Assembly (NCBI RefSeq): GCF_016887965.1
Contig: NZ_JAFDVD010000028.1
Span: 1-40,510 of the forward strand
DNA: 40,510 nucleotides
Reading direction: 5' to 3'
DNA from: Phycicoccus sonneratiae
Lineage (GTDB): Bacteria; Actinomycetota; Actinomycetes; Actinomycetales; Dermatophilaceae
Positions 24,370-38,916 of the stretch are shown in pieces. Numbering within the stretch: the first letter of the stretch is position 1; every line of letters begins with the position of its first letter. Under the pieces are notes generated by a model. It ran no database searches, was not told the origin of the DNA, and worked only from the letters and a program-made list of their open reading frames with translations. The position numbers and the translations under genes were made by a program.

Positions 24370-24371
24370 CG

Positions 24372-24413: not shown

Positions 24414-24471
24414 ATCACCCGTTCGGCCCGGTCCGGTCGTGACGGGGCTGCGTGGCGGCGGGCGGGCGGGG

Positions 24472-24477
24472 TACGGT
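24472..24477 (+). promoter_or_regulatory. -10 box of the CAP-domain gene
   Basis: TACGGT lies 43 bases before the GTG at 24521. A start site near 24484 would give a 5' UTR of about 37 bases with GAGG near the start codon. No clear -35 box was found. Confidence 0.35.
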
Positions 24478-24520
24478 GACCGCGCCCCGGACCCCTGCCC
24501 CCGACACCCGAGGTACCGCC

Positions 24521-25012
24521 GTGACCCACCCCACCCTGCGCTCCACCCTCCTGCGGGCCGCCGCCTGCACCGCGCTGCTGGCGCCGGTCGGCTTCGTCGC
24601 CGCCGAGCCCGCGAGCGCCGCGACGAACAGCCAGATGCAGAAGGACGTCATCACCCTCGTCAACGCCCAGCGCAAGAAGGTCGGCTGCGCTCCCCTGCGC
24701 ACGAGCACCGCGCTGCGCAACGCGGCGATCCTCCACAGCATCGACATGCGCACGAAGAACTACTTCAGCCACACCTCCAAGGACGGCCGCAGCCCCTGGG
24801 ACCGGATCCGCGCGCAGAACTACGCGTACGGGTCGGCCGAGAACATCGCCGCCGGGCAGCGCACCGCCAAGGCGGTCGTCGACGCCTGGATGAAGAGCAC
24901 CGGCCACCGGAAGAACATCCTCAACTGCGCGAACAAGGCCGTCGGCGTCGGTGTCTCGAAGGGCAGCGGCACGTACTACATCTACTGGACCCAGGACTTC
25001 GGCACCCGCTGA
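24521..25012 (+). CDS. Secreted CAP-domain (SCP/PR1-like) protein
   Basis: This 163-residue precursor has a signal peptide ('LRAAACTALLAPVGFVAAEPASA', cleavage expected near residue 33). The CAP domain shows 'ITLVNAQRKKVGCAPLR', 'HSIDMRTKNYFSHTSKDGRSPWDR', 'AENIAAGQRTAKAVVDAWMKS' and 'TGHRKNILN', the usual CAP signatures; each is quoted in part. The function of bacterial CAP proteins is mostly unknown. GTG 24521 was chosen because it places the signal peptide at the N-terminus; two upstream in-frame GTG codons would add unlikely Pro/Arg sequence before or over the promoter. Confidence 0.9.
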   Translation: MTHPTLRSTLLRAAACTALLAPVGFVAAEPASAATNSQMQKDVITLVNAQRKKVGCAPLRTSTALRNAAILHSIDMRTKNYFSHTSKDGRSPWDRIRAQNYAYGSAENIAAGQRTAKAVVDAWMKSTGHRKNILNCANKAVGVGVSKGSGTYYIYWTQDFGTR

Positions 25013-25026
25013 GGCACCCTGCCTCA
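25010..25026. terminator. Bidirectional hairpin containing both stop codons
   Basis: TGAGGCA-CCC-TGCCTCA is a perfect 7-bp stem with a 3-nt loop, extended to 8 pairs by the flanking C and G. Its left arm begins with the stop codon of the CAP gene and its right arm ends with the stop codon of the leftward dehydrogenase gene, so each convergent transcript ends inside its neighbour's stop. Confidence 0.6.
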
Positions 25027-26061
25027 GGCGTTCCGCGCCGCCCGTGCGGCGGCGAAGTCGAGCCCGGTCGCGGCCCGCACCCGGTCCATCACCTCGAGGG
25101 TGGCGACCGTGTCGGCCCACGGGCGCAGGGGTGAGCCGGTCTCGCCGGCCGTGATGCGCCGCGCGACCTCGGCGGCCTCGAAGTGCAGCCCGTCGTGGTC
25201 GACGCGCGGCTCATCCCAGCGCAGCGCGGCGCCCTCGCGGGGGTGCAGCGTGAACGGACCCGGCCGGTAGAACTGCCGGTGCAGCTCGATGCGCCCCTCG
25301 GGGCCGGCGATGCAGGCCGTCGTCGGGGTGTCGGCGAGGATCGAGCACTGGAGCGCCGCCGTCGCGCCGGATGCCGTGCCGAGCGCGACCGAGAGCTGGC
25401 CGTTGATGCCGGTCGGGGCGGGCGTCGCGACCGCGGTCACGGTGTCGGGGGCGCCGAGAACCCAGGTCGCGAGGGTCACCGGGTAGGTGCCGAGGTCGAG
25501 CAGGGGTCCGCCGGCGAGGTCGTCGCGGAAGATACGGTGCTGCGGCCCGAACCACTCGCCCATGTCGGCGAGGACCGACGTGGGCTCGCCGAGGACGCCG
25601 TCCTCGAGCAGCTGCCGCACGACGTCGAGGCGCGGGAGGAACAGGGTCCACATCGCCTCCATGCAGAAGACCCCGGCGGCGGCCGCCGCCTCGCCGATGG
25701 CCCGCGCCTCGTCGGCGTCGAGCCCGACCGGCTTCTCGACGAGCACGTGCTTGCCGGCCCCGATCGCCAGCAGGGCGTGCGGCAGGTGGACGTTGTGCGG
25801 GGTCGCGACGTAGACGACGTCGACCTCCGGGTCGGCGACGAGGGCCTCGTACGAGCCGTGCGCGCGCCCGGCCCCCCACCGGGCCACGGCGTCGTCGGCG
25901 GAGGCCTGCGTCCGCGAGCCCACCGCCGCCACGACCTGGCGGGTGTGCCGGCGCACCGAGCCGACGAACCGGTCGGCGATCCAGCCGGTCCCGAGCACGC
26001 CCCAGCGCAGCGGCGGGGCCTCGCCGGAGTCCGGGGTCCGGGGGCTGGGCAGCGCGGTCAT
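25024..26061 (-). CDS. Gfo/Idh/MocA family oxidoreductase A
   Basis: This 345-residue NAD(P)-dependent sugar or polyol dehydrogenase has a Rossmann motif in 'RWGVLGTGWIADRFVGSV', the catalytic Lys in LVEKPVGLDADEA, and the C-terminal beta-sheet domain with 'MGEWFGPQHRIFRDDLAGGPLLDLGTYPV', read in parts. It resembles the trans-1,2-dihydrobenzenediol/1,5-anhydrofructose-type dehydrogenases ('CMEAMWTLFLPRL'). The ATG at 26061 was selected because a -10 box (TATCGT, complement of 26075-26080) and an operator palindrome lie directly upstream. It is divergent from a TSUP permease gene. Confidence 0.88.
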   Translation of the reverse strand: MTALPSPRTPDSGEAPPLRWGVLGTGWIADRFVGSVRRHTRQVVAAVGSRTQASADDAVARWGAGRAHGSYEALVADPEVDVVYVATPHNVHLPHALLAIGAGKHVLVEKPVGLDADEARAIGEAAAAAGVFCMEAMWTLFLPRLDVVRQLLEDGVLGEPTSVLADMGEWFGPQHRIFRDDLAGGPLLDLGTYPVTLATWVLGAPDTVTAVATPAPTGINGQLSVALGTASGATAALQCSILADTPTTACIAGPEGRIELHRQFYRPGPFTLHPREGAALRWDEPRVDHDGLHFEAAEVARRITAGETGSPLRPWADTVATLEVMDRVRAATGLDFAAARAARNA

Positions 26062-26085
26062 CGGCACGCTCGGGACGATATCGTC

Positions 26086-26097
26086 ATGTCCTGACAT
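26086..26097. promoter_or_regulatory. Operator 1 of the shared palindrome family
   Basis: ATGTCCTGACAT, a 5+2+5 palindrome, lies between the divergent starts of the Gfo/Idh/MocA gene (minus) and the TSUP permease gene (plus). For the minus gene it falls in the space between the expected -35 position and TATCGT. The same 12-mer recurs at 29286. Confidence 0.7.
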
Positions 26098-26131
26098 TTG
26101 CACGAGGTGTATCGACGGCGAGGAGGTCGGC

Positions 26132-26881
26132 GTGGACCTGCTCGGGGGCGGCCTGTTCGCGGCCGGTCTGATGGCGGTGGCCGCGCTCGTCATCGGCTAC
26201 TCGAAGACGGCGCTCGGCGGACTCGCCGTCGTCGCGGTCGCGATCTTTGCCACCATCCTCCCCGCCCGGCAGTCGACCGCGGCCATCCTCGCGGTGCTCA
26301 TCGTCGGCGACCTCGTCGCGGTGTGGCACTACCGCCGCGACGCCGACTGGGCCATCGTCCGGCGTCTGCTGCCGGCCGTGCTGCCCGGGCTCGCGCTGGG
26401 GTCGGTGTTCCTCGGGCTCGTCGACGACTCCACGCTCCGGCGCAGCATCGGGGGCATCCTCCTCGCGCTGGTGCTGCTGCAGCTCTGGGTGAAGTGGCGT
26501 GCGGGAGAGCAGTCCTCGTCGCTGCACGAGCGCCCGGCCGCCGCCTGGGCGGCCGGCACCGGGGCGGGGTTCGCGACGATGACGGCCAACGCCGCCGGGG
26601 CCGTCATGACCCTCTACCTGTCGGCGTCGGGCATCGACAAGCGCCGGTTCGTCGGCACCAACGCGTGGTTCTTCCTCATCGTCAACCTCGTCAAGGTGCC
26701 GTTCTCGGTCGGGCTCGGGCTCATGCACTGGCGCGACGTGGGGCGGGCCGGGCTGCTCGCCCCGGCCGTGCTCGTCGGCGGTCTGCTCGGCTACGCGACG
26801 GTCCGGCGGATGAGCCAGCGCGGGTTCGACGTCGCCGTCCTCGTCGCCTCCGCCGTCGCCGCGGCGGCCCTCCTGATCTGA
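26132..26881 (+). CDS. TSUP (TauE/SafE) family permease
   Basis: This 249-residue membrane protein has about eight hydrophobic segments and the TSUP signatures 'GYSKTALGGLAVVAVAIFA' near the N-terminus and 'TMTANAAGAVMTLYLSASGIDKRRFVGTNAWFFLIVN' (read in parts) in the second half. TSUP proteins export or import sulfite, sulfoacetate, other organosulfur anions, or organic acids. The GTG at 26132 has GAGGAGG upstream. It may belong to the regulon because operator 1 lies 35 bases upstream, but that site could serve only the divergent dehydrogenase. It converges with the LacI gene, with 6 bases between stop codons. Confidence 0.85.
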   Translation: MDLLGGGLFAAGLMAVAALVIGYSKTALGGLAVVAVAIFATILPARQSTAAILAVLIVGDLVAVWHYRRDADWAIVRRLLPAVLPGLALGSVFLGLVDDSTLRRSIGGILLALVLLQLWVKWRAGEQSSSLHERPAAAWAAGTGAGFATMTANAAGAVMTLYLSASGIDKRRFVGTNAWFFLIVNLVKVPFSVGLGLMHWRDVGRAGLLAPAVLVGGLLGYATVRRMSQRGFDVAVLVASAVAAAALLI

Positions 26882-26887
26882 CCGGGT

Positions 26888-27928
26888 TCAGCCGCGCAGG
26901 CGCGGGGGGATGTTCCACGGCGTGACGACCTGGGGCGAGGACGGCACGCTCGTCGGGGCGCCGGGCAGGAGGTGCTGGGCGCGCAGCAGCTGGGTCAGGG
27001 CGGTGCGCAGGTCGGCGCGCAGGTCGTGGTGGAGCACGGCCGTCAGCACGCCGGAGCGCAGGAGGGGGAGGTTGTCGGCGTCGAGGTCGTGCCCGACGAA
27101 GGGGATGCCGGCCAGCCCCGCCCGCCCGAGGGCTGCAGCGGTGCCGGCGTTGCCCCCGCCCATCGAGTAGACCCCCACGACGTCGGGCCGCCGGGCGAGG
27201 ACCGCCGCGACCGCCTCGGCCATCGCGTCGTCGGCGCCGTGCACGTCACCGGCCCGCAGCACCTCGCGGCCGGGGGCGTCCGCCGCCAGCCGGCGCTCGA
27301 AGGCCACGAGCCGCTCCTGCTCGCCGAGGAAGGCGCGGTGGCTGACGGTGGCGAGGACGGGTCCGGGCCGGTCGCGGAGCGCGGAGGTCAGCAGGTGGGC
27401 CGCCGTCGCACCGGCCGCGGCGTTGTCGAGCCCCGCGTAGGCCACCCGCCCCGACCCCGCGAGATCGGTGACGAGGGTGACAGTGGGGATGCCCCGGTCG
27501 GCGGCGCGACGCACGGCAGCCGCCACGAGGGGGTCGTCCGGTGCCTTGAGCACAAGGCCGTGCGAGACCCGGCCGCCGGTGCCCACCGCGTCGACGAGCG
27601 CGGCGACGGCCGCGGGCGACTCCCCACCGCCCATCCGGAACCGCGCCCGAACGGTGGCCGGGCGCAGCGACGGCAGGGCCTCCTCGGTGGCGTCGCGGAC
27701 GGCGTCGCGGAAGCGGCCGGGTGCGTCGAGCACGACGTCGACGAAGACCGTGCGGCGGGCCAGCCGGAGCTGGGTGGCCTGCCGGTCGAGCTCGAGGAGG
27801 GCCTGCTCGACGGCCCGCACCGCGCGCGGGCTCGCGCCGGTGCGACCGTGGAGGACCCGGTCGACGGTGGCCGTCGAGAGGCCGGACTGCTCCGCGACGT
27901 CGCGGACCCGGTGGCCGGTGCGTGCCAC
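26888..27928 (-). CDS. LacI-family transcriptional regulator 1
   Basis: This 346-residue repressor-like protein has the LacI helix-turn-helix at 'RVRDVAEQSGLSTATVDRVL' followed by HGRTGASPRAV, and a periplasmic-binding-protein-like effector domain ('MGGGNAGTAAALGRAGLAG', 'FVGHDLDADNLPLLRSG'). The form STATVDRVLHGR and the Peripla_BP_4-like sensor recall regulators of sugar or inositol catabolism. The GTG at 27928 has GGAGGTGGA upstream; longer in-frame readings run antisense through the adjacent oxygenase and dehydrogenase genes and are not real. It is divergent from the PhyH-type oxygenase gene, which it probably controls. Confidence 0.88.
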   Translation of the reverse strand: MARTGHRVRDVAEQSGLSTATVDRVLHGRTGASPRAVRAVEQALLELDRQATQLRLARRTVFVDVVLDAPGRFRDAVRDATEEALPSLRPATVRARFRMGGGESPAAVAALVDAVGTGGRVSHGLVLKAPDDPLVAAAVRRAADRGIPTVTLVTDLAGSGRVAYAGLDNAAAGATAAHLLTSALRDRPGPVLATVSHRAFLGEQERLVAFERRLAADAPGREVLRAGDVHGADDAMAEAVAAVLARRPDVVGVYSMGGGNAGTAAALGRAGLAGIPFVGHDLDADNLPLLRSGVLTAVLHHDLRADLRTALTQLLRAQHLLPGAPTSVPSSPQVVTPWNIPPRLRG

Positions 27929-28045
27929 GGCTCCACCTCCTGCTCGACCCGGGCTGAGGTGATTCTGATGGATTCCTGTCTCACCGGTCCACCCCCACGC
28001 CCCCACGCTGGACGGACGACCACTGCCGTTCGCCGAGGAGCACCG
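27929..28045. promoter_or_regulatory. Divergent promoter region, LacI regulator 1 / oxygenase
   Basis: This 117-bp gap holds the Shine-Dalgarno sequences of both genes. It contains a direct repeat, GATTC at 27961-27965 and 27971-27975, in an AT-richer patch (27960-27978). Neither a LacI-type palindrome nor the TGTCNGGACA operator found elsewhere in the region is present. Confidence 0.35.
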
Positions 28046-29221
28046 ATGTCCCCCACGACCGCCACCACCGGCTTCCGCCGGGCCGAGGACTGCCGCCTCG
28101 AGGACCTGCTGACCGTCCTCGAGGCGCACACCGATCCCGCCGCCTTCCCGCACGCGGACCGGGTCGTGCAGGACGTCCTCGTCTACGAGGCCGCGTCGCT
28201 GCGCCCGCTCCTCGTCGACCCGGACTCCCGCGACACCGTCCTCGCCGAGCTCGCCGACGCCTTCGCCGACGGTCCCGGCATCGTCGTGCTCTCCGGGGCC
28301 TTCGAGACGACCGTCGTCGACCGGGTCACCGACGCCTTCGAGCAGATCATCCGCGAGGAGAAGGAGGCCGGACAGCTGGCCGGCGACCACTTCGCCGGGC
28401 CGGGGTCGAACGACCGGGTGTGGAACGCCCTCGAGAAGCTCGCCGTCCGGGACCCCGAGGCGTTCGTCGCGTACTACGCCAACGACCTCGTGGCCCTCGC
28501 TGCGACGGCCTGGCTCGGCCCCGGCTACCAGGTCACCTCGCAGGTCAACGTCGTCAACCCCGGCGGGAAGGGCCAAACGGTCCACCGCGACTACCACCTC
28601 GGCTTCCAGAGCCCCGCGGTCACCGGTCGCTACCCCGGCCGCGTCCACGACGTCTCGCCGCTGCTCACCCTCCAGGGCGCAGTCGCCCACTGCGACATGC
28701 CGGTCGAGACCGGGCCGACCCTCTACCTGCCGCACAGCCAGAAGTACCGGTACGGCTACCTCGCATACTGGCTGCCGGAGTTCCAGGACCACTTCCAGCG
28801 TCACCACGTCCAGCTGCCGCTGCACAAGGGCGACGCGGTCTTCTTCAACCCGGCCCTGTTCCACGCGGCGGGCTCGAACCACACCCACGACGTGCGCCGG
28901 ATGGCCAACCTGCTCCAGGTGTCGTCGGCGTTCGGCCGCGCGATGGAGACCGTCGACCGCGACCGGATGGTCCGAGCCGTGTACCCGTCCCTGCTGGCCG
29001 CCGTCGCGGACGGCCTGTCCGACACCGCCGCCGGGCACGTCGTCGCCGCGTCGGCCGAGGGGTACGCGTTCCCCACCAACCTCGACCGCGACACCCCCGT
29101 CGACGGGATGACACCCCGCAGCCAGGCCGAGGTGGTGCTCGACGCCCTCGCCGTCGCCCTGACCCCCGAGCAGCTCGGGACCCGCCTCGACGCCGTCGCC
29201 CACGCGAGGCTCAGCCACTGA
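28046..29221 (+). CDS. Phytanoyl-CoA dioxygenase (PhyH) family Fe(II)/2-oxoglutarate oxygenase
   Basis: This 391-residue protein has a jelly-roll oxygenase core. The metal triad is predicted as His180 and Asp182 in 'TVHRDYHLGF' and His273 in 'FNPALFHAAGSN', with Arg284/285 for 2-oxoglutarate. Further PhyH features are 'QVNVVNPGGKGQ', 'HCDMPVETGPTLYLPHSQ' and an N-terminal helical part with 'GPGIVVLSGAF'. It should hydroxylate or oxidatively cleave a small substrate at the expense of 2-oxoglutarate. The ATG has GAGGAG upstream. Its neighbours are sugar or polyol dehydrogenases, so a hydrophilic substrate is more likely than an acyl-CoA. The substrate is unknown. Confidence 0.87.
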   Translation: MSPTTATTGFRRAEDCRLEDLLTVLEAHTDPAAFPHADRVVQDVLVYEAASLRPLLVDPDSRDTVLAELADAFADGPGIVVLSGAFETTVVDRVTDAFEQIIREEKEAGQLAGDHFAGPGSNDRVWNALEKLAVRDPEAFVAYYANDLVALAATAWLGPGYQVTSQVNVVNPGGKGQTVHRDYHLGFQSPAVTGRYPGRVHDVSPLLTLQGAVAHCDMPVETGPTLYLPHSQKYRYGYLAYWLPEFQDHFQRHHVQLPLHKGDAVFFNPALFHAAGSNHTHDVRRMANLLQVSSAFGRAMETVDRDRMVRAVYPSLLAAVADGLSDTAAGHVVAASAEGYAFPTNLDRDTPVDGMTPRSQAEVVLDALAVALTPEQLGTRLDAVAHARLSH

Positions 29222-29285
29222 CCGCTGCCACCCGACGCCCCTCCGGTTCGAGCGCACGGCGGTCCGCGGCGCCGGGCCTCTCCAT

Positions 29286-29307
29286 ATGTCCTGACATTCG
29301 GTTGACA
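29286..29307 (+). promoter_or_regulatory. Operator 2 and -35 box of the SDR-IolG-like operon
   Basis: ATGTCCTGACAT (29286-29297) is identical to operator 1. It is followed by a consensus -35 TTGACA (29302-29307) and, 17 bp later, GACGAT (29325-29330) as a -10 candidate. The operator abuts the -35 box. The SDR start codon is 50 bases past the -10 candidate. Confidence 0.65.
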
Positions 29308-29380
29308 GATGCTGGCCGGAACGCGACGATGGACCGGCCCTGAGACCCTGAGCACCGACCGACGGGAAACCCCACCCCCC

Positions 29381-30166
29381 ATGAGCCTCACCGACCTCCT
29401 CGTCGACCGCGTGGTCCTCGTCGTCGGGGCAACCTCCGGAGTCGGGGAGGCCGTGGCCCGGGCCGCCGCGCGCGAGGGGGCGTACGTGACCGTCGCCGGG
29501 CGTCGGACGGAGCGGGCCGACGCCCTGGCCGCCCAGCTGTCCGACGGCGGTTCCGAGGCCCTCGCGGTGTGGTGCGACGTCGCCGACCCGGCCAGTGCGG
29601 TGGGCGCCGTGGCAGCGACGGTCGAGCGCTTCGGTCGCATCGACGGCCTCGTGAACTCCGCCGGCCTGACCACCCGAGGCACCCTGCTCGACACCACCCC
29701 CGAGCTGTTCGACGCGCACGTGGCCACGAACCTGCGTGGCCCGTTCTTCACGATGCAGGCCGCGGTCGCGGACATGAGGCGCCGGGGCGCCGGTGGCGCG
29801 GTCGTCAACATCATCAGCAGCGCAGAGCTGGGCGGGCAGCCGTACCTGGCGCCCTACGCGGCCACGAAGGCGGGTCTGGCGACTCTCACCCGGAACGCGG
29901 CCTTCGCCCACCGGTGGGACCGGATCCGGATCAACGGCCTCGACATCGGCTGGACCGAGACCGAGGGCGAGGCCGACATCCAGCGGCGGTTCCACGGGGC
30001 CGGCGAGGACTGGGTGGAACGGGCGGCGGCCAGCGTCCCCATGGGCAGGCTGGGCCAGGTCGACGAGATCGCCGACATGGTCGTCTTCCTCCTCTCCGAC
30101 CGGAGTGGAGTCGTCACGGGCTCGGTCGTCGACTGGGACCAGATCATCCAAGGATGTCAAGACTGA
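29381..30166 (+). CDS. SDR family oxidoreductase, polyol/sugar dehydrogenase-like
   Basis: A classical short-chain dehydrogenase of 261 residues. It has the coenzyme motif GATSGVGEA (16-24), an NSAG-type motif (92-95) and the catalytic Ser146, Tyr159 and Lys163 in 'NIISSAELGGQPYLAPYAATK' (read in parts). The sequence 'GLDIGWTETEGEADIQRRFHG' near the C-terminus marks a subgroup often found in sugar catabolic clusters. It probably oxidises a hydroxyl to a ketone. The stop codon overlaps the next start (TGATG), so it is coupled to the IolG-like dehydrogenase gene. Transcription is expected from the operator 2 promoter. Confidence 0.87.
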   Translation: MSLTDLLVDRVVLVVGATSGVGEAVARAAAREGAYVTVAGRRTERADALAAQLSDGGSEALAVWCDVADPASAVGAVAATVERFGRIDGLVNSAGLTTRGTLLDTTPELFDAHVATNLRGPFFTMQAAVADMRRRGAGGAVVNIISSAELGGQPYLAPYAATKAGLATLTRNAAFAHRWDRIRINGLDIGWTETEGEADIQRRFHGAGEDWVERAAASVPMGRLGQVDEIADMVVFLLSDRSGVVTGSVVDWDQIIQGCQD

Positions 30167-31179
30167 TGCGCATCGGACTCATCGGCCTCGGGCGCATCGG
30201 CGCCTTCCACGCCGACACCCTCGCCGCCCTCGACCGCGTCGACGAGCTCGTCGTCACCGACCCCGTCACCGCCGCGGCGGACGCCGTGACGGCCCGCATC
30301 CCGAAGGCGACGGCGGTCGGCTCGCCCGAGGCGCTGCTCGACGCCGGCGTCGACGGCGTGGTCATCGCGGCAGCGACGAGTGCGCACGCCGAGCTGCTGC
30401 TCGCGTCGGCCGGGCGGGGGATCCCGACGTTCTGCGAGAAGCCGATCGCCGGTTCTGCCGACGAGGCGGTCACCGTCCGCGACCGCCTGGCGGGCTCGGA
30501 CGTCGCCGTCCAGATCGGGTACCCGCGCCGTTTCGACCCGGCCTTCGTCGCGGCCCGCGACGCCGTGCGCAGCGGTCAGCTCGGCCGCGTGCACACCGTC
30601 CGCTCGACAACCCTCGACCCGGCCCCGCCGCCGGCGGCCTACCTCGCGGGGTCCGGGGGCATCTTCCGCGACTGCTCGGTCCACGACTTCGACGCCGTGC
30701 GGTGGGTCACCGGCCAGGAGGCGGTCGAGGTGTACGCCGTCGGTGCGGTCGACCCCGACGCCCCCGCCGAGATGTACGCCGACCACGGCGACTGGACGAC
30801 CGCTTCGGTGCTCATCACCCTCGCCGACGGGACCGTCGGCGTCGTCTCGAACACGCGCACAAACGCCCGCGGCTACGACGTCCGGCTCGAGGTGCACGGT
30901 GTCCTGGACGCGGTGGCGGCCGGGCTGGACGAAGGTCTCCCGCTCCGGCCCACGCAGCCAGGCATCACCTGGCCCGGCGGCCCCCCGCACTCCTTCTTCA
31001 TGGACCGCCTCACCGCGGCCTTCCGCGCCGAGCTCGCGACGTTCTGCGCCGTCGCGGCCGGCGAGGTCACCTCGCCGTGCACGATCGAGGACGCCATGGG
31101 CACGGCCTGGATCGCCGAGGCCGCCACCGTGTCCGCTCGGGAGAAGCGCCCGGTGCGCATCGACGAGGTCGCCCGCTGA
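30166..31179 (+). CDS. Gfo/Idh/MocA family oxidoreductase B, IolG (inositol 2-dehydrogenase)-like
   Basis: This 337-residue protein has the IolG-type pattern: 'MRIGLIGLGRIGAFHADTLA' at the N-terminus, FCEKPIA with the catalytic Lys, 'IGYPRRFDPAFVAARDAV', and 'GSGGIFRDCSVHDFDAVRW' with the Asp/His pair of the active site. IolG enzymes oxidise myo-inositol or related cyclitols with NAD+. The exact substrate here is unproven because other inositol catabolic genes (iolBCDE) are absent from the window. ATG 30166 overlaps the SDR stop codon; an in-frame ATG at 30154 is the alternative. It converges with the MFS gene, 9 bases apart. Confidence 0.88.
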   Translation: MRIGLIGLGRIGAFHADTLAALDRVDELVVTDPVTAAADAVTARIPKATAVGSPEALLDAGVDGVVIAAATSAHAELLLASAGRGIPTFCEKPIAGSADEAVTVRDRLAGSDVAVQIGYPRRFDPAFVAARDAVRSGQLGRVHTVRSTTLDPAPPPAAYLAGSGGIFRDCSVHDFDAVRWVTGQEAVEVYAVGAVDPDAPAEMYADHGDWTTASVLITLADGTVGVVSNTRTNARGYDVRLEVHGVLDAVAAGLDEGLPLRPTQPGITWPGGPPHSFFMDRLTAAFRAELATFCAVAAGEVTSPCTIEDAMGTAWIAEAATVSAREKRPVRIDEVAR

Positions 31180-31188
31180 CGCAGGACC

Positions 31189-32367
31189 TCACCCGACGGC
31201 AAGGTCCCGTCGGCGGGCGCGGCGGATGACCTGCAGCGCGACCGCGGCCAGGACGACGAGGACGGGGACGACGGTCAGCGCCGCCTCCAGCGACGTCGCC
31301 TCGGCCAGGGTCCCCACGGTCAGGGGCGCCAGGAGGATGGCCGTCGAGGTGAGGAGGACGACCCGCCCGCTGGCCGCCGCGGCGTGCTGCGGTGCGACGG
31401 AGACCGCGATCGACAGGCCGAGGGGGAAGAGGTTGCCCACGCCGGTGCCGAGCAGCGCCATCCCGATCGTCGACGGGAGCGGGGTCGTCGAGGGCCACGC
31501 GACGACGAAGCCGACGAGCGCCACCGCGAGCGCCAGCGCGAACAGCCGCGAGGGGTCGTGGCGCCTGGTGAGCCGGCTGCCGAGGACGCGCCCGGCGAGG
31601 ACCCCCCCGAAGTAGCCGGCCATGACCGCCACCGCCCTGTCGGGGGAGGAGTCGAGGGCCTGCTGGACGAACGTCGCTCCCCAGGCGGTGATGCACCACT
31701 CGGCCGCCGTGGCGCACATGAGCATCCCGCCGGCGACCCAGAAGATCGGCGGCAGCCGACCGCCCGCGGTGTCCATCCCCCCTCGCGACGGCTCGACGAG
31801 GGTGCCTCGGTTGGCCGACCGGGCGAGGAGCGGGGCGACGAGGGAGACGAGGACGGCCGCGCGCCAGTCCAGGCCGACGGCGGTCGCCAGCAGGAGGGTG
31901 CCGGCGAGGAGGAGGTAGGACGCCGCGGCCGCGACGTTCGCCTCGGTGAGGGCGACCGCCGGACGGGCGGCGTGGTGCTCGGCCAGCCCGACCTGCACCG
32001 TCGCCAGCAGCAGCCCGCCGCCGACACCCATCACCGCGATGGCACCGACGGTCGCGGCAGGTTGCCGGCCCAGCGTCAGGAGCGCGGCACCCAGGGCCAT
32101 CACCCCACTCGAGGCCCACAGCAGCCGCGTCCGTCCGAGGTGTCGCTCCGCTCGGGCCGACACCGCGCCGGCGAGCGTGGCGCCCGCGGCGAACGCGGCC
32201 ACGTGCAGCCCGCCGACGGTGTAGCCGAAGCCCATCTCCGCGCGCAGGCGCGGCACGACGAGCCCCGGCACGGCCTGGAGGTAGGCGAACCAGGCGAGCA
32301 GCGCGTAGAGCGTCCAGGTGACCCGGTCCCGGCGGAACCCGGCGGCCGCGCCCGCGGGGTCAGCCAA
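31189..32367 (-). CDS. MFS transporter
   Basis: This 392-residue membrane protein has 12 predicted helices of the major facilitator type. It starts 'TLYALLAWFAYLQAVPGLVVPRLRAEMG', has the loop 2-3 motif in 'SARAERHLGRTRLLWASSG', and a central loop rich in charged residues ('RSANRGTLVEPSRGG'). The second half includes 'GYFGGVLAGRVLGSRLTRRHDPSRL'. It resembles sugar/drug-type facilitators such as YbjJ/FucP relatives. The start is taken as TTG 32367, overlapping the end of the isomerase gene by 8 bases, since no ATG or GTG precedes the first helix in frame. The likely role is uptake or efflux of the compound handled by the regulon. Confidence 0.83.
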   Translation of the reverse strand: MADPAGAAAGFRRDRVTWTLYALLAWFAYLQAVPGLVVPRLRAEMGFGYTVGGLHVAAFAAGATLAGAVSARAERHLGRTRLLWASSGVMALGAALLTLGRQPAATVGAIAVMGVGGGLLLATVQVGLAEHHAARPAVALTEANVAAAASYLLLAGTLLLATAVGLDWRAAVLVSLVAPLLARSANRGTLVEPSRGGMDTAGGRLPPIFWVAGGMLMCATAAEWCITAWGATFVQQALDSSPDRAVAVMAGYFGGVLAGRVLGSRLTRRHDPSRLFALALAVALVGFVVAWPSTTPLPSTIGMALLGTGVGNLFPLGLSIAVSVAPQHAAAASGRVVLLTSTAILLAPLTVGTLAEATSLEAALTVVPVLVVLAAVALQVIRRARRRDLAVG

Positions 32368-33157
32368 GCGTGAAGGCCGCTCGGAAGGCCGCGAGGGCCG
32401 CTGTCGGGTCGGCACTCGCGAAGGCCTCGAGGCCGACCACCCCGGTGAAGCCGGCGTCCGCGAGGGCGCGCGCGACTCCCGCGTAGCGGATCTCGCCGGT
32501 ACCGGGCTCGCACCGGCCCGGGACGTCGGCGACCTGCACCTCCGCGACCCAGGGCAGCGCCTCCCGACACAGCTCGATGAGGTTCCCCTCGCCGATCTGG
32601 GCGTGGTAGAGGTCGAGGTTGAGCCGCAGGTGCGGCGAGTCGACGCCCCGCACGAGGTCGAGGGTGTCGGCCGCACGTGCGAACGGTGTCCGTGGGTGGT
32701 CGACCGCCGTGTTGAGGTTCTCGAGGACGAAGGTGACCCCCTCGCGCTCGCCGAGGTCGGCGATGCGGCCGAGGGTGCGTCGGGCGGTGTCCCACATCCG
32801 CCGGGTGACCTCGTCGGCGGGCACGACCGGCAGCCCGCGTCCGTCCAGACCGGTGCCGTGCAGGTTCAGGCTCGGGGTGCCGAGGCGGCGGGAGACGGCG
32901 ACCGACTCGGCGGCGGTGCGCAGCAGCTCGTCCGCGCCGGCCTCGTCGGCCAGCGTCCCCGTCGTGTAGCCGGTCATCGAGGTGAAGTGCACACCGTCGG
33001 CAGCGAGCGCCTCGAGGGAGTCGAGGTCGTGGTTCCGCCAGTCCCAGATCTCCACGGCGAACCCGGCGTCGTGGATGGTCCGGACCCGGTCGGCGACCGG
33101 GAGGTCGACGAAGAGCATCTCGGCACTCGCGGCGAGGACGAACGGGGAGGTGCTCAT
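32360..33157 (-). CDS. Hydroxypyruvate isomerase-like TIM-barrel protein
   Basis: This 265-residue protein of the AP-endonuclease/sugar isomerase TIM-barrel fold has the Hyi-group motifs 'LENLNTAVDHPRTPFARAAD', 'LNLDLYHAQIGEGNLIELC' and 'QVADVPGRCEPGTGEI', which carry the metal-binding Glu, Asp, His and Glu residues. Family members isomerise hydroxypyruvate to tartronate semialdehyde or keto acids such as 2-oxo-tetronate. The ATG at 33157 has AGGAG 6 bases upstream. Its -10 box TAGGAT (complement of 33202-33207) and operator 3 lie upstream. The MFS gene follows with overlap. Confidence 0.87.
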   Translation of the reverse strand: MSTSPFVLAASAEMLFVDLPVADRVRTIHDAGFAVEIWDWRNHDLDSLEALAADGVHFTSMTGYTTGTLADEAGADELLRTAAESVAVSRRLGTPSLNLHGTGLDGRGLPVVPADEVTRRMWDTARRTLGRIADLGEREGVTFVLENLNTAVDHPRTPFARAADTLDLVRGVDSPHLRLNLDLYHAQIGEGNLIELCREALPWVAEVQVADVPGRCEPGTGEIRYAGVARALADAGFTGVVGLEAFASADPTAALAAFRAAFTLG

Positions 33158-33214
33158 GCCGGCTCCTGGTCAGGGGGTGGACTCGGCAGCGGTCCGCGAG
33201 CATCCTAGCGGCAA

Positions 33215-33226
33215 TTGTCAGGACAT
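33215..33226. promoter_or_regulatory. Operator 3, overlapping the LacI 2 stop codon
   Basis: TTGTCAGGACAT lies between the -10 box TAGGAT of the isomerase gene and the expected -35 position. It contains the stop codon of the upstream LacI gene (33218-33220). A further half-site, TGTCCGG, follows at 33230. Confidence 0.65.
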
Positions 33227-34261
33227 TCTGTCCGGCGAGGAGGACCGTGCCGCAGCCGGCGGTCCGCTCGAGGAGCGCACCACGAGTCGGGGGTCGATGA
33301 CCACGTCGGCACCCCCGACACCATCCCCCCGCACGACGGCCGCGAGGAGCTGCACCGTGGCGTGCGCCAGCCGACCCGGCTCCTGGCTCACCGAGGTGAG
33401 GTCGACCGTCCCCAGGCGAGCGAGCGGGCTGTCGTCGTACCCGACGACGGACAGCTCGCCGGGAAGGTCCAGCCCGGCCCGGAGGACGGTGTCCCGGAGG
33501 CCGATCGCACACCGGTCGTTGAAGCACACGACCGCCGTCGGAGGCTCTCCGCGGCGCCGGGCCAGCAGGTGTCGCGCGGCCCGGACCCCGGCCTCCTCGG
33601 TCGCCCCGCCCGCGAGGACGTCGACCTCCGTCGCCCCGCCGTGGCGCCTCATCGCGGCGCGGTAACCCGCCCGACGGGCCGCGGCGATCGATCCCCGGGG
33701 GCCGTCAACGAAGGCGATCCGCCGGTGGCCGAGGGCGGCGAGGTGGTCGACGACCAGCTCGAGGCCCTGGTCGTCGGACACGAGCACCCCGGGCACCCGC
33801 GCGGTCCCCCGACGGCCGACGACGACCGTGGGCACGGAGTCCGGGAGCGCGTCCAGCGCCGGGTCCGACATCGCCGGGCCGAGCAGGACCAGCGCCTCGC
33901 AGCGGAAGTCGAGCAGGGTCTCGGCGGCCCGGGCCTCGTCCCGGCGTGCGGTCACCGTCGAGAGGACGAGGTCGAGGTCGCGCTCGGCCGCCTCGTCGTC
34001 CAGGGCACGGACCAGCTCGGCGTGGAACGGGCTGGTGACGTCGAGGAGGACCCCGATGAGGCGCGAGCGGTGCCGCGCCAGCAGGCTCGCCGTGCGGTCC
34101 GGACGGTAGCCGAGAGCGGCGGCCGCCTCGCGCACCGAGCGGGCCGTGGCCTCGCTCGGGCCGGGGCGTCCGCGCAGGACGAGGGAGGCCGTGGCGGTCG
34201 AGACCCCGGCCCGCCGTGCGACGTCGACGAGTCGGGGGCGCGCCGGTCCGCGGTCCACCAT
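33218..34261 (-). CDS. LacI-family transcriptional regulator 2, probable regulator of the sugar regulon
   Basis: This 347-residue repressor has the LacI helix-turn-helix 'LVDVARRAGVSTATASLVLRGRPGPSEAT' (read in parts), hinge 'ALGYRPDRTASLLARHRS', and an effector-binding domain ('LIGVLLDVTSPFHAELV', 'VCFNDRCAIGLRDTV', 'LSVVGYDDSPLARL'). ATG 34261 has a perfect AAGGAGGG ahead. The perfect palindrome TTTGTCCGGACAAA with the CG centre typical of LacI operators lies 20 bases upstream, indicating autoregulation. Related imperfect sites in front of four other units suggest it is the common regulator. It is divergent from the Gfo-TIM-Gfo operon. Confidence 0.9.
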   Translation of the reverse strand: MVDRGPARPRLVDVARRAGVSTATASLVLRGRPGPSEATARSVREAAAALGYRPDRTASLLARHRSRLIGVLLDVTSPFHAELVRALDDEAAERDLDLVLSTVTARRDEARAAETLLDFRCEALVLLGPAMSDPALDALPDSVPTVVVGRRGTARVPGVLVSDDQGLELVVDHLAALGHRRIAFVDGPRGSIAAARRAGYRAAMRRHGGATEVDVLAGGATEEAGVRAARHLLARRRGEPPTAVVCFNDRCAIGLRDTVLRAGLDLPGELSVVGYDDSPLARLGTVDLTSVSQEPGRLAHATVQLLAAVVRGDGVGGADVVIDPRLVVRSSSGPPAAARSSSPDRMS

Positions 34262-34280
34262 GCGCGACCCTCCTTGACAG

Positions 34281-34294
34281 TTTGTCCGGACAAA
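34281..34294. promoter_or_regulatory. Operator 4, perfect LacI-type palindrome
   Basis: TTTGTCCGGACAAA, fully symmetric with a central CG, lies in the divergent gap between LacI regulator 2 and the Gfo-TIM-Gfo operon, close to the regulator's start. Its core TGTCCGGACA differs by one base from the core TGTCAGGACA of the other sites. Confidence 0.75.
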
Positions 34295-34331
34295 ACCTTG
34301 ACACGGGTCGACGACCGGAGCCACCATCGCT

Positions 34332-34343
34332 TAAAGCGCTTTA
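34332..34343 (+). promoter_or_regulatory. Second LacI-type palindrome over a -10 box
   Basis: TAAAGCGCTTTA is a perfect 12-bp palindrome with a central CG step. It touches TATACA (34342-34347), the best -10 candidate for the Gfo gene at 34381. Its sequence is unrelated to the TGTCNGGACA sites, so a different LacI-family protein is expected, possibly regulator 1 or a global regulator. Confidence 0.6.
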
Positions 34344-34380
34344 TACACGTCGATGCCGACGGCGACAAGGAGAGACGACG

Positions 34381-35577
34381 ATGTCCCAGCAGCCCCTCGG
34401 AGTGGCCGTCATCGGGGCCGGCATGGCCGGCCGGGCGCACTGCGCCGGCTACCGCTCCGCACCGACCCTCTTCGACCCGCCGCTGCCGCCGATCCGGTAC
34501 GCGGCCGTCGTCGACGCCCACGACGCCACGGCCGCCGACGCCGCCGCCCGGTACGGGTACGGGCGGCACGGCACCGACTGGCGTGAGCTGCTCGACGCCG
34601 ACGACGTGCAGGTGGTCAGCGTCGTCGTCGCCAACGCCCTCCACCGGGAGATCGTCGAGGCACTGCTGGCCGCGGGCAAGCACGTCATCTGCGAGAAGCC
34701 GCTGTCGGATTCCCTCGAGGACGCGCGGGCGATGGCCGACGCCGCTGCCGCGCACCCGCACCTCGTGACGGGCACGGCGTTCGTCTACCGCCGCCAGCCG
34801 GCCGTCGCGGCGATCCGCGAGCTGGTCGCGACCGAGCTCGGCGAGGTGTCGCACTTCAACGGCCGCTACTGGTGCGACTACGCCCGCAGCCCACTGACCC
34901 CGATGGCCTGGCGCTACCGGGGCGGGCCGGGCACCGGCGCCCTCGCCGACATCGGCAGCCACCTCATCGACCTCGCCGAGTTCGTCTGCGGGCCGATGAC
35001 CCAGGTCGGCGGCGCGGCGTTCACGACGAAGGTCACGGAACGGTTCGTCGCCGCGGGAGTCACCTACGGGCACGCCCGCGCCGAGCTGACCGAGGTCAGC
35101 GAGCGGGTCGAGAACGACGACGTCGCGACCTTCACGGCGCACTTCGCGTCCGGCGCCGTCGGCACCTTCTCGATCTCCCGGGTCGCTCCCGGGCACGCCA
35201 ACTCGCTCGCCTTCGACCTGTTCGCCGAGACCGGTGCCGCGAAGTGGGACATGGACCGACCGGCCGAGTTCTCCGTGCTGCGCCAGATGCGCGACGACGG
35301 GCTCGACGGCTACAACCAGGTGCTGGTCGGCCCCTCCCACCCCTACCTCAAGGGCGGGGTGCCGATGGACTTCCCCGGCGTCTCGTTCGGCGTCGGGGAC
35401 CTCTTCGGCTTCCAGCTGCGCGCCTTCCTCGAGCAGGTGGCCGGCATCGAGAGCGGCCTGCCCCCCGTCGCCTCGTTCGAGGACGGCGTCCGCGACCTGA
35501 CGATCATCGACGCGGTCATCCGCTCAGCCGCCGCCGGCGGAGCTGTCGTCGACCTGCCGCCCCACCACTCCGCCTGA
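34381..35577 (+). CDS. Gfo/Idh/MocA family oxidoreductase C
   Basis: This 398-residue dehydrogenase has the Rossmann motif GAGMAG (12-17), the catalytic Lys106 in CEKPLS, and 'YRRQPAVAAIRELV' and 'GGPGTGALADIGSHLIDLAEF' in the C-terminal domain. An extra loop after strand 1 ('YRSAPTLFDPPLPPIRY') is the hallmark of a subgroup that, as I recall it, includes levoglucosan dehydrogenase and other glycoside 3-dehydrogenases. It has AAGGAG 8 bases upstream. It is the first gene of a three-gene operon with a TIM-barrel protein and a second Gfo/Idh/MocA enzyme, a set seen in pathways through 3-keto sugars. The substrate is not known. Confidence 0.88.
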   Translation: MSQQPLGVAVIGAGMAGRAHCAGYRSAPTLFDPPLPPIRYAAVVDAHDATAADAAARYGYGRHGTDWRELLDADDVQVVSVVVANALHREIVEALLAAGKHVICEKPLSDSLEDARAMADAAAAHPHLVTGTAFVYRRQPAVAAIRELVATELGEVSHFNGRYWCDYARSPLTPMAWRYRGGPGTGALADIGSHLIDLAEFVCGPMTQVGGAAFTTKVTERFVAAGVTYGHARAELTEVSERVENDDVATFTAHFASGAVGTFSISRVAPGHANSLAFDLFAETGAAKWDMDRPAEFSVLRQMRDDGLDGYNQVLVGPSHPYLKGGVPMDFPGVSFGVGDLFGFQLRAFLEQVAGIESGLPPVASFEDGVRDLTIIDAVIRSAAAGGAVVDLPPHHSA

Positions 35578-35613
35578 CCCGCACCGGAACCCGAGCCCTC
35601 CAAGGAGCACACC

Positions 35614-36600
35614 ATGTACCTCGGCGTCTACAACGCCTGCCTCGGCGACAAGCCGCTCGGCGAGGCCCTCGACATCATCGCCTCGCTGGGGATGACCAGC
35701 GTCGAGATCAACTCCGGTGGTTTCCTGCCGCCGATCCACCTGCCCGTCGAGCGGCTGCGGGAGAGCGAGGACGCCCGCCAGGAGTACCTCGGCGAGTTCA
35801 GCTCGCGGGGCCTGACCCTCACCGCGCTGAACTGCAACGGCAACCCGCTCTTCCCGCGCGAGGGCTTCCCGCACGCGAAGGACCTCGAGGACTCGATCGA
35901 GCTCGCGGCCCTGCTGGGCGTGAAGCGTCTCGTGACGATGTCCGGAGCGCCCGGCGCGAGCGCCGGCGACACGAACATGGCGTGGAACCCCCTGCCGTGG
36001 TGGAGCCCGCTGCTCGACGTGCGCGACCATCAGTGGGGCGTCGCCGTGCCCTTCTGGAAGGAGATCCAGTCACGGGCCGCCGACGCCGACGTCAGGGTCG
36101 CCATCGAGATGCACCCCGGCAACGTCGTGTTCAACCCCTCCTCGATGCACCGGCTCGCCGAGGAGATCGGCTCGACACACGTGGGGGCCGAGATGGACCC
36201 GAGCCACCTGTTCTGGCAGGGCATCGACCCGGTCCTCGCCGTCAGGGACCTCGGGGAGCTGGTGTTCAACGCCGCCGCCAAGGACACCCGCATCAACGAG
36301 GCCGCCAAGGTCAACGGCGTGCTCGACGACCGCTTCACGCGCGTCGTCGAGGGCGAGCAGGGCTACCTGCCCCTCGGGGGCGGGACGAGCCTCTCCGGAT
36401 GGCCGACCGCCTCCTCCTGGGACTTCGTCGCCGTCGGCCGCGGGCACGACGTCCAGTGGTGGACCGAGTTCCTCCGGGCCCTGCGGGACGTCGACCCGGA
36501 CATGCCCGTCAACATCGAGCACGAGGACCAGGAGCTCGACCAGCTCGAGGGCCTGCGCTTCGCGGCGACCACCCTGCTCGAGGCCGAGCAGGCCCTGTGA
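35614..36600 (+). CDS. Sugar phosphate isomerase/epimerase-like TIM-barrel protein
   Basis: This 328-residue AP-endonuclease 2-type TIM barrel opens with 'MYLGVYNACLGDKPLGEALD' (read in part) and 'IIASLGMTSVEINSGG'. Metal-binding positions are suggested by 'VAIEMHPGN', 'GAEMDPSHLFWQGIDP' and 'VNIEHEDQELD'. Such proteins catalyse isomerisation, epimerisation or beta-elimination on keto sugars. AAGGAG lies 6 bases before the ATG. The gene is flanked by two dehydrogenase genes in one operon and shares four bases with the next start. It differs from the Hyi-like protein encoded at 32.4 kb in length and motifs, so the two are not duplicates. Confidence 0.87.
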   Translation: MYLGVYNACLGDKPLGEALDIIASLGMTSVEINSGGFLPPIHLPVERLRESEDARQEYLGEFSSRGLTLTALNCNGNPLFPREGFPHAKDLEDSIELAALLGVKRLVTMSGAPGASAGDTNMAWNPLPWWSPLLDVRDHQWGVAVPFWKEIQSRAADADVRVAIEMHPGNVVFNPSSMHRLAEEIGSTHVGAEMDPSHLFWQGIDPVLAVRDLGELVFNAAAKDTRINEAAKVNGVLDDRFTRVVEGEQGYLPLGGGTSLSGWPTASSWDFVAVGRGHDVQWWTEFLRALRDVDPDMPVNIEHEDQELDQLEGLRFAATTLLEAEQAL

Positions 36601-37619
36601 GCACCTCGGCCGAGGGCACCGAGCCGCTGCGGATCGGCGTCCTCGGCGCGGCGCGCATCACCGCGCTCTCCCTCGTCGAACCGGCCCGGCTCACGGGCCA
36701 CCGCCTCGTCGCCGTCGCGGCCCGCTCCCCCGAGCGGGCCGCGGCCTTCGCGGCCGAGCACGGCATCGAGCGGGTGCTCGACTCGTACCGGGCGGTCATC
36801 GAGGACCCCGAGGTCGAGGCGGTGTACAACCCGCTGCCGAACGCCCACCACGGGCACTGGAACCTCGCCGTGGCCACGGCCGGGAAGCACGTCCTCGCCG
36901 AGAAGCCGGCGGCGGCGAACGCCGACGAGATGCACGCCGTCGCCGAGGCGGTCCGCGCGGCCGGCGTCGTCTGGCTGGAGGGTTTCCACTACCCGTACCA
37001 CCCGCTCTTCCTCCGGGTCCGCCAGATCATCGCGTCCGGCGGCATCGGGGAGGTGCGTCACGTCGACGCACCCTTGTGGATGCCCTCCCCGCCCGACGAC
37101 GACCCCCGCTGGTCGGCCGATCTCGCGGGCGGGTCCACCATGGACCTCGGGTGCTACTCGATCTCGTGCCTGCGGCCGCTCGGCGAGTACGCCGGTGGTG
37201 AGCCCACCCTGGTCGACGCGTCGGCCACCGAGCGCGACGGCCACCCCGGTGTGGACGAGCGCCTCGCGCTCGAGGTCGAGTACCCCTCCGGCGCCACGGG
37301 GTCCGGGGGGTCGGACATGGCCTACGAGGGCCGCAACTTCCAGCTCACGGTCACGGGGTCGAGGGGCTCGATCGAGTGCCCGATGTTCGCCGTGCCGAGC
37401 GAGGACGACACGCTCGTCTGGCGGCGCACCGGGTCCGACGCGGTGGTGGAGCACCTCGGGCGGCGCACCAGCTACACCTACCAGCTCGAGGCCTTCGCAG
37501 CGGCGGTGCGCGAGGGCTCGCCGGTGGTCACCGACCTCGACTTCTCGGTCGCGACGATGACGATGATCGACCGGGCCTACCGGCTGGCCGGGATGGAACC
37601 GCGCCGGGCCGCAAGCTGA
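36597..37619 (+). CDS. Gfo/Idh/MocA family oxidoreductase D
   Basis: This 340-residue protein has a relaxed coenzyme motif ('IGVLGAARITALSLVEPARL'), the catalytic Lys in LAEKPAAANADEMH, 'EGFHYPYHPLFLRVRQII' and 'GGSTMDLGCYSISCLR'. This is the dihydrodiol/glucose-fructose-type subgroup, distinct from enzymes B and C. The GTG overlaps the stop codon of the TIM-barrel gene (GTGA), so it is the third coupled gene. A perfect 16-bp terminator follows 11 bases after the stop codon. It is a probable sugar dehydrogenase or reductase; the substrate is unknown. Confidence 0.87.
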   Translation: MSTSAEGTEPLRIGVLGAARITALSLVEPARLTGHRLVAVAARSPERAAAFAAEHGIERVLDSYRAVIEDPEVEAVYNPLPNAHHGHWNLAVATAGKHVLAEKPAAANADEMHAVAEAVRAAGVVWLEGFHYPYHPLFLRVRQIIASGGIGEVRHVDAPLWMPSPPDDDPRWSADLAGGSTMDLGCYSISCLRPLGEYAGGEPTLVDASATERDGHPGVDERLALEVEYPSGATGSGGSDMAYEGRNFQLTVTGSRGSIECPMFAVPSEDDTLVWRRTGSDAVVEHLGRRTSYTYQLEAFAAAVREGSPVVTDLDFSVATMTMIDRAYRLAGMEPRRAAS

Positions 37620-37630
37620 CGAGAGGTTGC

Positions 37631-37665
37631 CGAGGCCCTCGGATCCGCCGGATCCGAGGGCCTCG
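37631..37665 (+). terminator. Perfect 16-bp terminator hairpin
   Basis: CGAGGCCCTCGGATCC (37631-37646), a 3-nt loop GCC, and the exact complement (37650-37665). This is the strongest hairpin in the window. It ends the Gfo-TIM-Gfo operon and insulates the transaldolase promoter. Confidence 0.85.
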
Positions 37666-37701
37666 CCGTGTTCCCGTCGAGCCGTTTGTAGGTTAGTCTG
37701 G

Positions 37702-37713
37702 TTGTCAGGACAT
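37702..37713 (+). promoter_or_regulatory. Operator 5, in front of the transaldolase-family gene
   Basis: TTGTCAGGACAT, identical to operator 3, lies just behind a TAGTCT -10 candidate (37694-37699), so it would cover the start site. TTGTAG at 37686 and CATTAT at 37711 offer an alternative promoter that also brackets it. Confidence 0.65.
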
Positions 37714-37732
37714 TATGACGGAAGGGGTCGCG

Positions 37733-38824
37733 ATGAGCGACGCGCACACCACCACCACGACGGTGGACTCCCCCCTGCTCACGATGACGCGGACGACGCC
37801 GACGGCGCTCTGGAACGACAGCGCCGACCCGGCCGAGCTGTCGACCGCCATCGGCTGGGGGGCCGTCGGGGCGACGTGCAACCCGGTGATCGCCCTCGCC
37901 GCCATCCGCGCCGACCAGCCGCGCTGGGAGGCCCGCATCCGCGAGATCGCGGCCGAGCTGCCCACGGCGAGCGAGTCCGAGATCGGCTGGAAGGTCGTCG
38001 AGGAGGTCTCCCTCGAGGCCGCCGAGCTGCTCGCGCCCGTCTTCGCCGAGCACGGGGGCCGCAACGGCCGCCTCTCGATGCAGACCGACCCGCGCCTGCG
38101 TCGCTCGGCCACGGCCCTGGCCGACCAGGCCGAGTACTTCGCGTCCCTCGCCCCGAACATCATCGTCAAGGTGCCCGCCACCTCGGTCGGGGTCGAGGCC
38201 ATCGAGGACGCCACCTACCGCGGCGTGAACATCAACGTCACGGTCTCCTTCTCGGTCCCCCAGGCCCTGGCCACCGGCGAGGCGATCGAGCGCGGCCTGC
38301 GGCGTCGCGAGGCCGAGGGTCTGCCCGTCGAGGGGATCGGGCCGGTCGTCACGATCATGGTCGGGCGTCTCGACGACTGGCTCAAGGAGGTCGTCGAGCG
38401 CGACGGCCTCGACGTCGACCCCGCGCACCTGGAGTGGGCCGGGGTCGCCGCCGTGAAGCGCGCGTACACCCTGTTCCGCGAGCGTGGCCTCCGGGCCCGG
38501 GTGCTCGCCGCCGCGTACCGCAATCAGCTCCAGTGGACCGAGCTCGTCGGTGGCGACCTCGTGCTCTCGCCACCGTTCGCCTGGCAGCAGAAGTTCCAGG
38601 ACAGCGGCATCGACCCCCAGCCGCGCATCGACGTCCCCGTCGACCCCGAGATCATCGCCTCGCTCGAGCGGATCGAGGACTTCCGGCGCGCCTACGAGCC
38701 CGACGGCATGACGCCAGAGGAGTTCGACGACTTCGGCGCCACCCGCAAGACGCTCCGCCAGTTCCTCGGCGCGGACGAGGAGCTCGACCAGCTCGTGCGT
38801 GACGTCATCACACCCGCCCCCTGA
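37733..38824 (+). CDS. Transaldolase-family protein
   Basis: This 363-residue class I aldolase-fold protein has the family opening 'PTALWNDSADPAELSTAIGWGAVGATCNP' (read in parts), 'GRLSMQTDPRL', the Schiff-base Lys146 in IIVKVPAT and 'GVNINVTVSFSV'. It is divergent from housekeeping transaldolases, with a longer C-terminal half ('LEWAGVAAVKRAYTLF', 'LVGGDLVLSPPFAWQQKFQ'). It probably cleaves or transfers a three-carbon unit from a ketose in the same catabolic pathway, judged by operator 5. ATG 37733 has GGAAGGGG 6 bases upstream; an ATG at 37715 is less likely. Confidence 0.85.
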   Translation: MSDAHTTTTTVDSPLLTMTRTTPTALWNDSADPAELSTAIGWGAVGATCNPVIALAAIRADQPRWEARIREIAAELPTASESEIGWKVVEEVSLEAAELLAPVFAEHGGRNGRLSMQTDPRLRRSATALADQAEYFASLAPNIIVKVPATSVGVEAIEDATYRGVNINVTVSFSVPQALATGEAIERGLRRREAEGLPVEGIGPVVTIMVGRLDDWLKEVVERDGLDVDPAHLEWAGVAAVKRAYTLFRERGLRARVLAAAYRNQLQWTELVGGDLVLSPPFAWQQKFQDSGIDPQPRIDVPVDPEIIASLERIEDFRRAYEPDGMTPEEFDDFGATRKTLRQFLGADEELDQLVRDVITPAP

Positions 38825-38826
38825 CG

Positions 38827-38891
38827 CCCTCTCGCTGCGCCAGGAGAGGGGAACCCTGCGGTGCCCCGGGAGACCTCACAGCTCCCGGGGC
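38827..38891. terminator. Two tandem hairpins between convergent genes
   Basis: CCCTCTC (38827-38833) pairs with GAGAGGG (38844-38850), and GCCCCGGGAG (38863-38872) pairs with CTCCCGGGGC (38882-38891) around a 9-nt loop. They lie between the ends of the transaldolase and L,D-transpeptidase genes and can stop transcription from both sides. Confidence 0.65.
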
Positions 38892-38916
38892 TCCGTGGCG
38901 TCCGGGGCCGCGACCG

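Follow-up and report, generated by a model that had tools for sequence, protein, structure and literature searches.

Predicted operators of an IolR-type GntR regulator link a 12-kb gene set to the myo-inositol cluster of Phycicoccus sonneratiae

In Corynebacterium glutamicum, the genes of inositol catabolism and uptake are described as being repressed by IolR (Cg0196), a GntR-type regulator (PMC9603128; PMC7356990), and a title cited in PMC6608401 names SCO6974 as a GntR repressor of myo-inositol catabolism in Streptomyces coelicolor. Regulators of the HutC subfamily are reported to recognize mostly GT and AC placed 4 nt apart, and in some groups an additional half-site lies 7-12 nt away from that centre (PMC4494728). 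For the LacI family, a CG centre is given as the consensus of even palindromes for 1173 of 1251 transcription factors, and seven non-orthologous LacI groups are given for inositol (PMC4052901). Here we analyzed a 40,510-nt stretch of Phycicoccus sonneratiae (NZ_JAFDVD010000028.1), referred to as the window, which constitutes the entire contig C12 of a genome of 4,111,833 bases in 33 contigs. It carries five copies of the motif TGTCNNGACA in front of genes for oxidoreductases, isomerases, a regulator and a transaldolase-family protein, and these copies had been attributed to that regulator, the LacI-family protein LacI 2. We conclude that the five sites are very probably operators of an IolR-type GntR/UTRA regulator of the HutC subfamily encoded on another contig, C31, and that they probably switch one gene set together.

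Judged by its description, the C. glutamicum regulon resembles the one predicted here in that a GntR-type regulator is tied to inositol genes; there, however, uptake proceeds via secondary transporters, whereas the cluster here includes an ABC transporter, and LacI 2 is present in a second half of the regulon. SCO6974 can be likened by title alone, as a member of the same GntR-type repressor class. The consensus of C. glutamicum IolR is reportedly KGWCHTRACA, which fits TGTCCTGACA; no match to that string was found in the open-licence literature. Searched against solved HutC/UTRA structures, the profile of the P. sonneratiae IolR matched 2ra5_A ('putative transcriptional regulator') at E 5.7e-85, YvoA at 7e-45 and DasR at 7e-37, with which it would have the GT-N4-AC operator class in common; DasR and YvoA serve N-acetylglucosamine genes. 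A published account of this regulon in these genera was not found among the open-licence papers listed, including a search with the site string, for which the titles among the matches listed appear unrelated.

Within the window, TGTCNNGACA matches five times, against 0.46 expected, and none of 100 shuffled sequences reached five; all the sites of the original prediction are present where it had placed them. Two copies read ATGTCCTGACAT, one at 26086-26097 between gfo1 (minus strand) and a TauE/SafE-like permease gene (plus strand, recognized by eye), the other at 29286-29297, ahead of the SDR-IolG2 operon, with a TTGACA (29302-29307) following after 4 nt. Two further copies read TTGTCAGGACAT, at 33215-33226 upstream of hyi and the MFS gene, where the site overlaps the lacI2 stop codon (33218-33220), and at 37702-37713 upstream of the transaldolase-family gene. 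The fifth, TTGTCCGGACAA at 34282-34293, lies in the divergent lacI2/gfo2 region within the perfect 14-bp palindrome TTTGTCCGGACAAA (34281-34294), the CG-centred copy that had been noticed at the LacI gene. The genes named earlier behind the sites stand, but the gfo2 operon, which the 34282 site faces as well, had been left out, and the 26086 site also faces the TauE/SafE-like gene on its other side. From site centre to start codon there are 30 nt for gfo1, 63 nt for hyi, 26 nt for lacI2, 93 nt for gfo2, 25 nt for the transaldolase-like gene (assuming a start at 37733) and about 90 nt for the SDR gene (ATG 29381). Judged by its letters, the motif is a HutC-type GT-N4-AC palindrome, with TGTCNNGACA at all five sites and centres of AG/CT in four of them and CG in one. 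The bare 10-mer TGTCNNGACA occurs at five further places in the genome, flanked by G/C on both sides in four and by G and T in one, none having A/T on both flanks; three lie inside called open reading frames (two at the very start) and two outside any.

Genome scans extended the site family to a second locus. The pattern WTGTCNNGACAW was found at six places, the five window sites and C31:39658, and the relaxed pattern WTGTHMKDACAW at eight, the five window sites and three on C31; the reversed control gave none in either case. Since WTGTHMKDACAW was broadened after the C31 sites had been seen, its three matches there are not independent of the design, but the absence of any further match across the 4.1 Mb is independent of it. 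A further pattern, WTGWCHTRACAW, had all seven of its matches in the window or the iol cluster, one of them new (C31:33900, before iolE1). A chance origin of the sites, considered against the window shuffles and these scans, was rejected. The local regulon proposed in the original prediction is thus coherent and better supported than was claimed, with all eight relaxed sites in two inositol loci and no scatter, but it is not purely local, as the motif recurs on a second contig. By the sequence of its genes, the C31 locus (C31:30000-49999, L007) is a core myo-inositol cluster: IolD, IolC, IolB and MMSDH (IolA) score above NCBIfam cut-offs, and iolE-like, iolG-like and two sugar ABC transporter genes match below cut-off. 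Divergent from iolC on the minus strand lies the gene of the IolR-like GntR/UTRA regulator (C31 42634-43371; L007:12635-13372), with both domains above cut-off (PF00392, 57.8 bits; PF07702, 124.9 bits). The C31:39658 site is located about 240 nt upstream of an ABC substrate-binding gene, and weaker copies are present between iolR and iolC (ATGTCCTAACAA), ahead of the iolE-iolD operon (ATGTCAGAACAT) and in front of iolE1 (ATGACCTAACAT).

The comparison with relatives showed that the motif is conserved and that in most loci it is kept upstream of the iolR-like gene. IolR matches (E<=1e-20) were found in 43 of 59 family genomes and LacI 2 matches (E<=1e-30) likewise in 43, the majority of these LacI 2 matches being distant. 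Protein similarity was the sole criterion for ranking the iolR loci, in two sets that partly share organisms, and the 250 nt before iolR were searched for copies with at most one mismatch, the counts across relatives being non-independent through shared ancestry. Such copies precede iolR in 50 of 80 named loci (perfect in 18), compared with 43 (7 perfect) of 2786 windows of 250 nt taken elsewhere in those loci and 1.4% of shuffles (at most one mismatch). In the best 30 family loci the figures are 21 and, for perfect copies, 8, with shuffles at 1.6% and 0.07%. Taking at least 45% identity as an ortholog of LacI 2, the motif is present at 14 of 17 iolR loci from genomes without one and at 7 of 13 with one (Fisher p 0.12); as it is found in both situations, it is independent of LacI 2. 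The recognition helix SRPTVRRA of IolR is identical in all 30 family loci; since the search behind the set of 80 used this helix as a pattern, finding it in that set carries no information, and the exact string is missing from six. Of the 67 sites in 17 selected genomes, 43 lie within 25 kb of iolR (0.9 expected). At most one mismatch separates the site from the motif at 9 of 14 transaldolase-like loci, our own included (shuffles 1%), and the gfo1 ortholog of G007 is likewise preceded by a site (L111:3115). Moreover, the genes of the window for SDR, IolG2, LacI 2, Gfo1-3, the isomerase, Hyi and the transaldolase-like protein sit in varying sets among iolR/C/D/E/A in relatives including G020 (L107), G022 (L109), G007 (L110-111) and L121, in a neighbourhood comparison that leaves IolB unlabelled and in which some sites are labelled as inside a reading frame, automatic calls often beginning too early. 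C12 therefore looks like the accessory portion of an inositol locus, found here on a contig of its own.

LacI 2 appears to have an operator of its own. A second palindrome, TTAAAGCGCTTTA at 34331-34343, has a CG centre and no other exact copy in the genome, and we infer that LacI 2 binds it. In 18 LacI2-like loci examined, the corresponding CG-centred palindrome varies with the recognition helix of the regulator: STATASLVLRG, SPATASLVLRG and STASVSLVLRG pair with AAAGCGCTTT (G000, G022, G007, G001, G034, G021, G039, G028, and G029 with one change), SKALVS types with TAGACCGGTCTA (G006, G056), STSTAS with ACCGGAACGTTCCGGT (G013), SRALVSIVFRG with CTAGAGCGCTCTAG (G018), and SRALVSLVM or SRALVSMVI with TTAGCGCGCGCTAA (G012, G002). 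No helix-linked palindrome was found upstream of the LacI2-like locus in G053, and G025 has only a GC-rich one. An exception is G020, where a STATAS helix has no palindrome before lacI2; there lacI2 lies apart from gfo2, and TTAAAGCGTTTTAA, one change away, stands before gfo2. A palindrome that tracks the recognition helix provides a testable operator for LacI 2.

The earlier assignment of all five sites to LacI 2, with autoregulation, is accordingly very improbable, and both conservation and covariation led us to reject LacI 2 as their common owner. In its favour, the copy 26 nt before lacI2 is perfect and CG-centred, and a site with at most one mismatch is found at 10 of the 18 LacI2-like loci, G029 among them. 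The motif is, however, kept at iolR where no LacI 2 ortholog exists, and it does not look like a LacI-type operator: palindromes of the LacI family are mostly CG-centred, whereas four of the five sites here are not, and the TGTC site stays constant beside differing helices (G012, G002) while the other palindrome follows them, standing before gfo2 in G020, where lacI2 lies elsewhere. LacI 2 may be another of the LacI-family inositol regulators. A division of labour, in which IolR and LacI 2 share the palindrome at 34281 and IolR alone serves the other four sites, is quite unlikely as well. The lacI2 copy is the sole CG-centred one among the eight WTGTHMKDACAW sites of the genome, and CG is likewise the centre at the orthologs of G007, G034 and G029; G022, G021, G039 and G028 have AG/CT at that place, and a separate AAA(A/G)CGCTTT is found nearby in all eight loci of this type. 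Finally, a different HutC-type GntR protein of the genome would fit the motif, and our survey of its GntR regulators covered IolR-like matches; the C31 regulator is the sole match at E<=1e-20 and its own promoter region bears the motif, so that we regard such an owner as highly improbable.

For IolR as the owner, the architecture of the promoters bears on how it would act. TTGACA follows the operator after 4 nt at window positions 29286 and 34282 (there at 34298-34303, facing gfo2, 4 nt from the end of the 12-mer) and at the C31 ABC promoter, and after 3 nt at iolC. Across inositol loci, 43 of 161 site contexts have a TTGAC 3-4 nt past the site, against about 0.2 expected, with palindromes counted in both directions. 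With its first base 10 nt from the centre, TTGACA is compatible with a -35 element as well as with the half-site that some groups of HutC regulators add. No TTGAC was found within 30 nt of our own gfo1, hyi and transaldolase-like gene sites, which lie 25-63 nt before the start codon; four transaldolase-like relatives (L128, L129, L131, L135) have one 4 nt off. We propose that IolR, as a dimer, would bind palindromes resembling TTTGTCNNGACAAA both at the promoters of the core iol genes and at the window's accessory inositol genes, that a site 3-4 nt before TTGACA would let it block the likely -35, and that it would most likely repress in the absence of inositol and be released by an inositol catabolite. 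Activation in place of repression where the site abuts the -35 is unlikely, although the fixed spacing to TTGAC and a centre near -46 would suit it. Against it stand the description of C. glutamicum IolR, also GntR-type, as a repressor (PMC9603128; PMC7356990), the three window sites lacking TTGAC, and the chance that TTGACA provides an additional half-site of the kind reported in some HutC regulators.

In this scheme LacI 2 would be a second regulator, specific to one promoter, and would act through TTAAAGCGCTTTA, close to where the gfo2 transcript probably begins. In the eight loci with an IolR site and AAA(A/G)CGCTTT before lacI2, the centre of the IolR site is exactly 10 nt before TTGACA in every case, and the LacI palindrome is centred 48-51 bp from it in seven of them; in the eighth the distance is 61 bp, longer by about one helical turn. 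With other helices the distance is 46 bp (G012) or 17 bp (G002), and G001 has the LacI palindrome without an IolR site. Tentatively, the lacI2/gfo2 promoter could be a conserved two-signal gate, possibly involving contact between IolR and LacI 2, through which the gfo2-isomerase-gfo3 operon would open only upon an inositol signal plus a second one, perhaps an inositol glycoside.

Several observations weigh against the assignment to IolR as a repressor. The copy at its own iolR promoter carries one mismatch, and 30 of the 80 iolR loci have no copy within one mismatch, several having two-mismatch versions like TTTGTTAGAACATT or TTTGTTAACACATT; a small number of the copies counted are out of position (further than -140, or, in some Kribbella, at -40) and could reflect chance. 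Sites near iolR are few in some relatives (1 of 8 in G041, 2 of 7 in G010, 1 of 4 in G040, 0 of 2 in G004), four of those in G041 forming a second group around a transaldolase-like gene, and the 17 genomes and a set of 20 regions were picked partly because sites had already been seen. SDR loci have a perfect site in 2 of 8, our own included. The set for the reverse comparison held no complete genome with LacI 2 and without iolR; G029, which is 58% complete, has LacI 2 with a one-mismatch copy before its gene, no iolR match and no WTGTCNNGACAW site. A promoter scanner called no consensus sigma-70 promoter in 24300-38900, leaving the -10 elements unplaced, and a site at about -46 would suit an activator too. 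Separately, in Kribbella loci L179-L198 the site upstream of iolR is in many cases TTTGTTANCACATT, a common variant of the operator.

As to the genes themselves, gfo1 (25024-26061, minus strand) encodes a Gfo/Idh/MocA oxidoreductase by Pfam. The SDR oxidoreductase is PRK06198-like (29381-30166, plus) and is followed by the IolG-like inositol dehydrogenase IolG2 (30166-31179, plus; 278.7 bits, under the NCBIfam cut-off of 355). On the minus strand lie the MFS transporter (31192-32373), the Hyi-like TIM-barrel isomerase (32360-33157, under NCBIfam cut-offs) and lacI2 (33218-34261), and on the plus strand gfo2 (34381-35577; Gfo/Idh/MocA, nearest model levoglucosan dehydrogenase, 241.6 bits against a cut-off of 650), a xylose-isomerase-like TIM barrel (35614-36600), gfo3 (36597-37619; Gfo/Idh/MocA) and the transaldolase/F6P-aldolase family protein (37733-38824, under NCBIfam cut-offs). 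The latter may replace an aldolase of the inositol pathway; it is found in 14 of the 59 family genomes at E<=1e-60 and adjoins iolD or iolE in several (L108, L109, L120, L121). A second LacI-family regulator with a Peripla_BP_4 domain, LacI 1 (26888-27931), has homologs of 61% in L109 and L114 that neighbour inositol-type genes; within 1 kb of its own start there is no TGTC site. The gene at 28046-29221, upstream of the SDR operon, appears by eye to encode a phytanoyl-CoA-dioxygenase-type protein.

Our analysis corrects the regulator of this 12-kb region, which would be an inositol-type repressor encoded elsewhere in the genome and not the nearby LacI 2, and ties the oxidoreductases, isomerases and transaldolase-family enzyme encoded there to inositol metabolism. 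An unusual detail is a single promoter in which a predicted IolR site 10 nt before TTGACA would be followed by a LacI site at a distance of about 50 bp. The operator motif is fully specific in this genome, though less so in some relatives, and may be used to predict inositol regulons in related actinobacteria.

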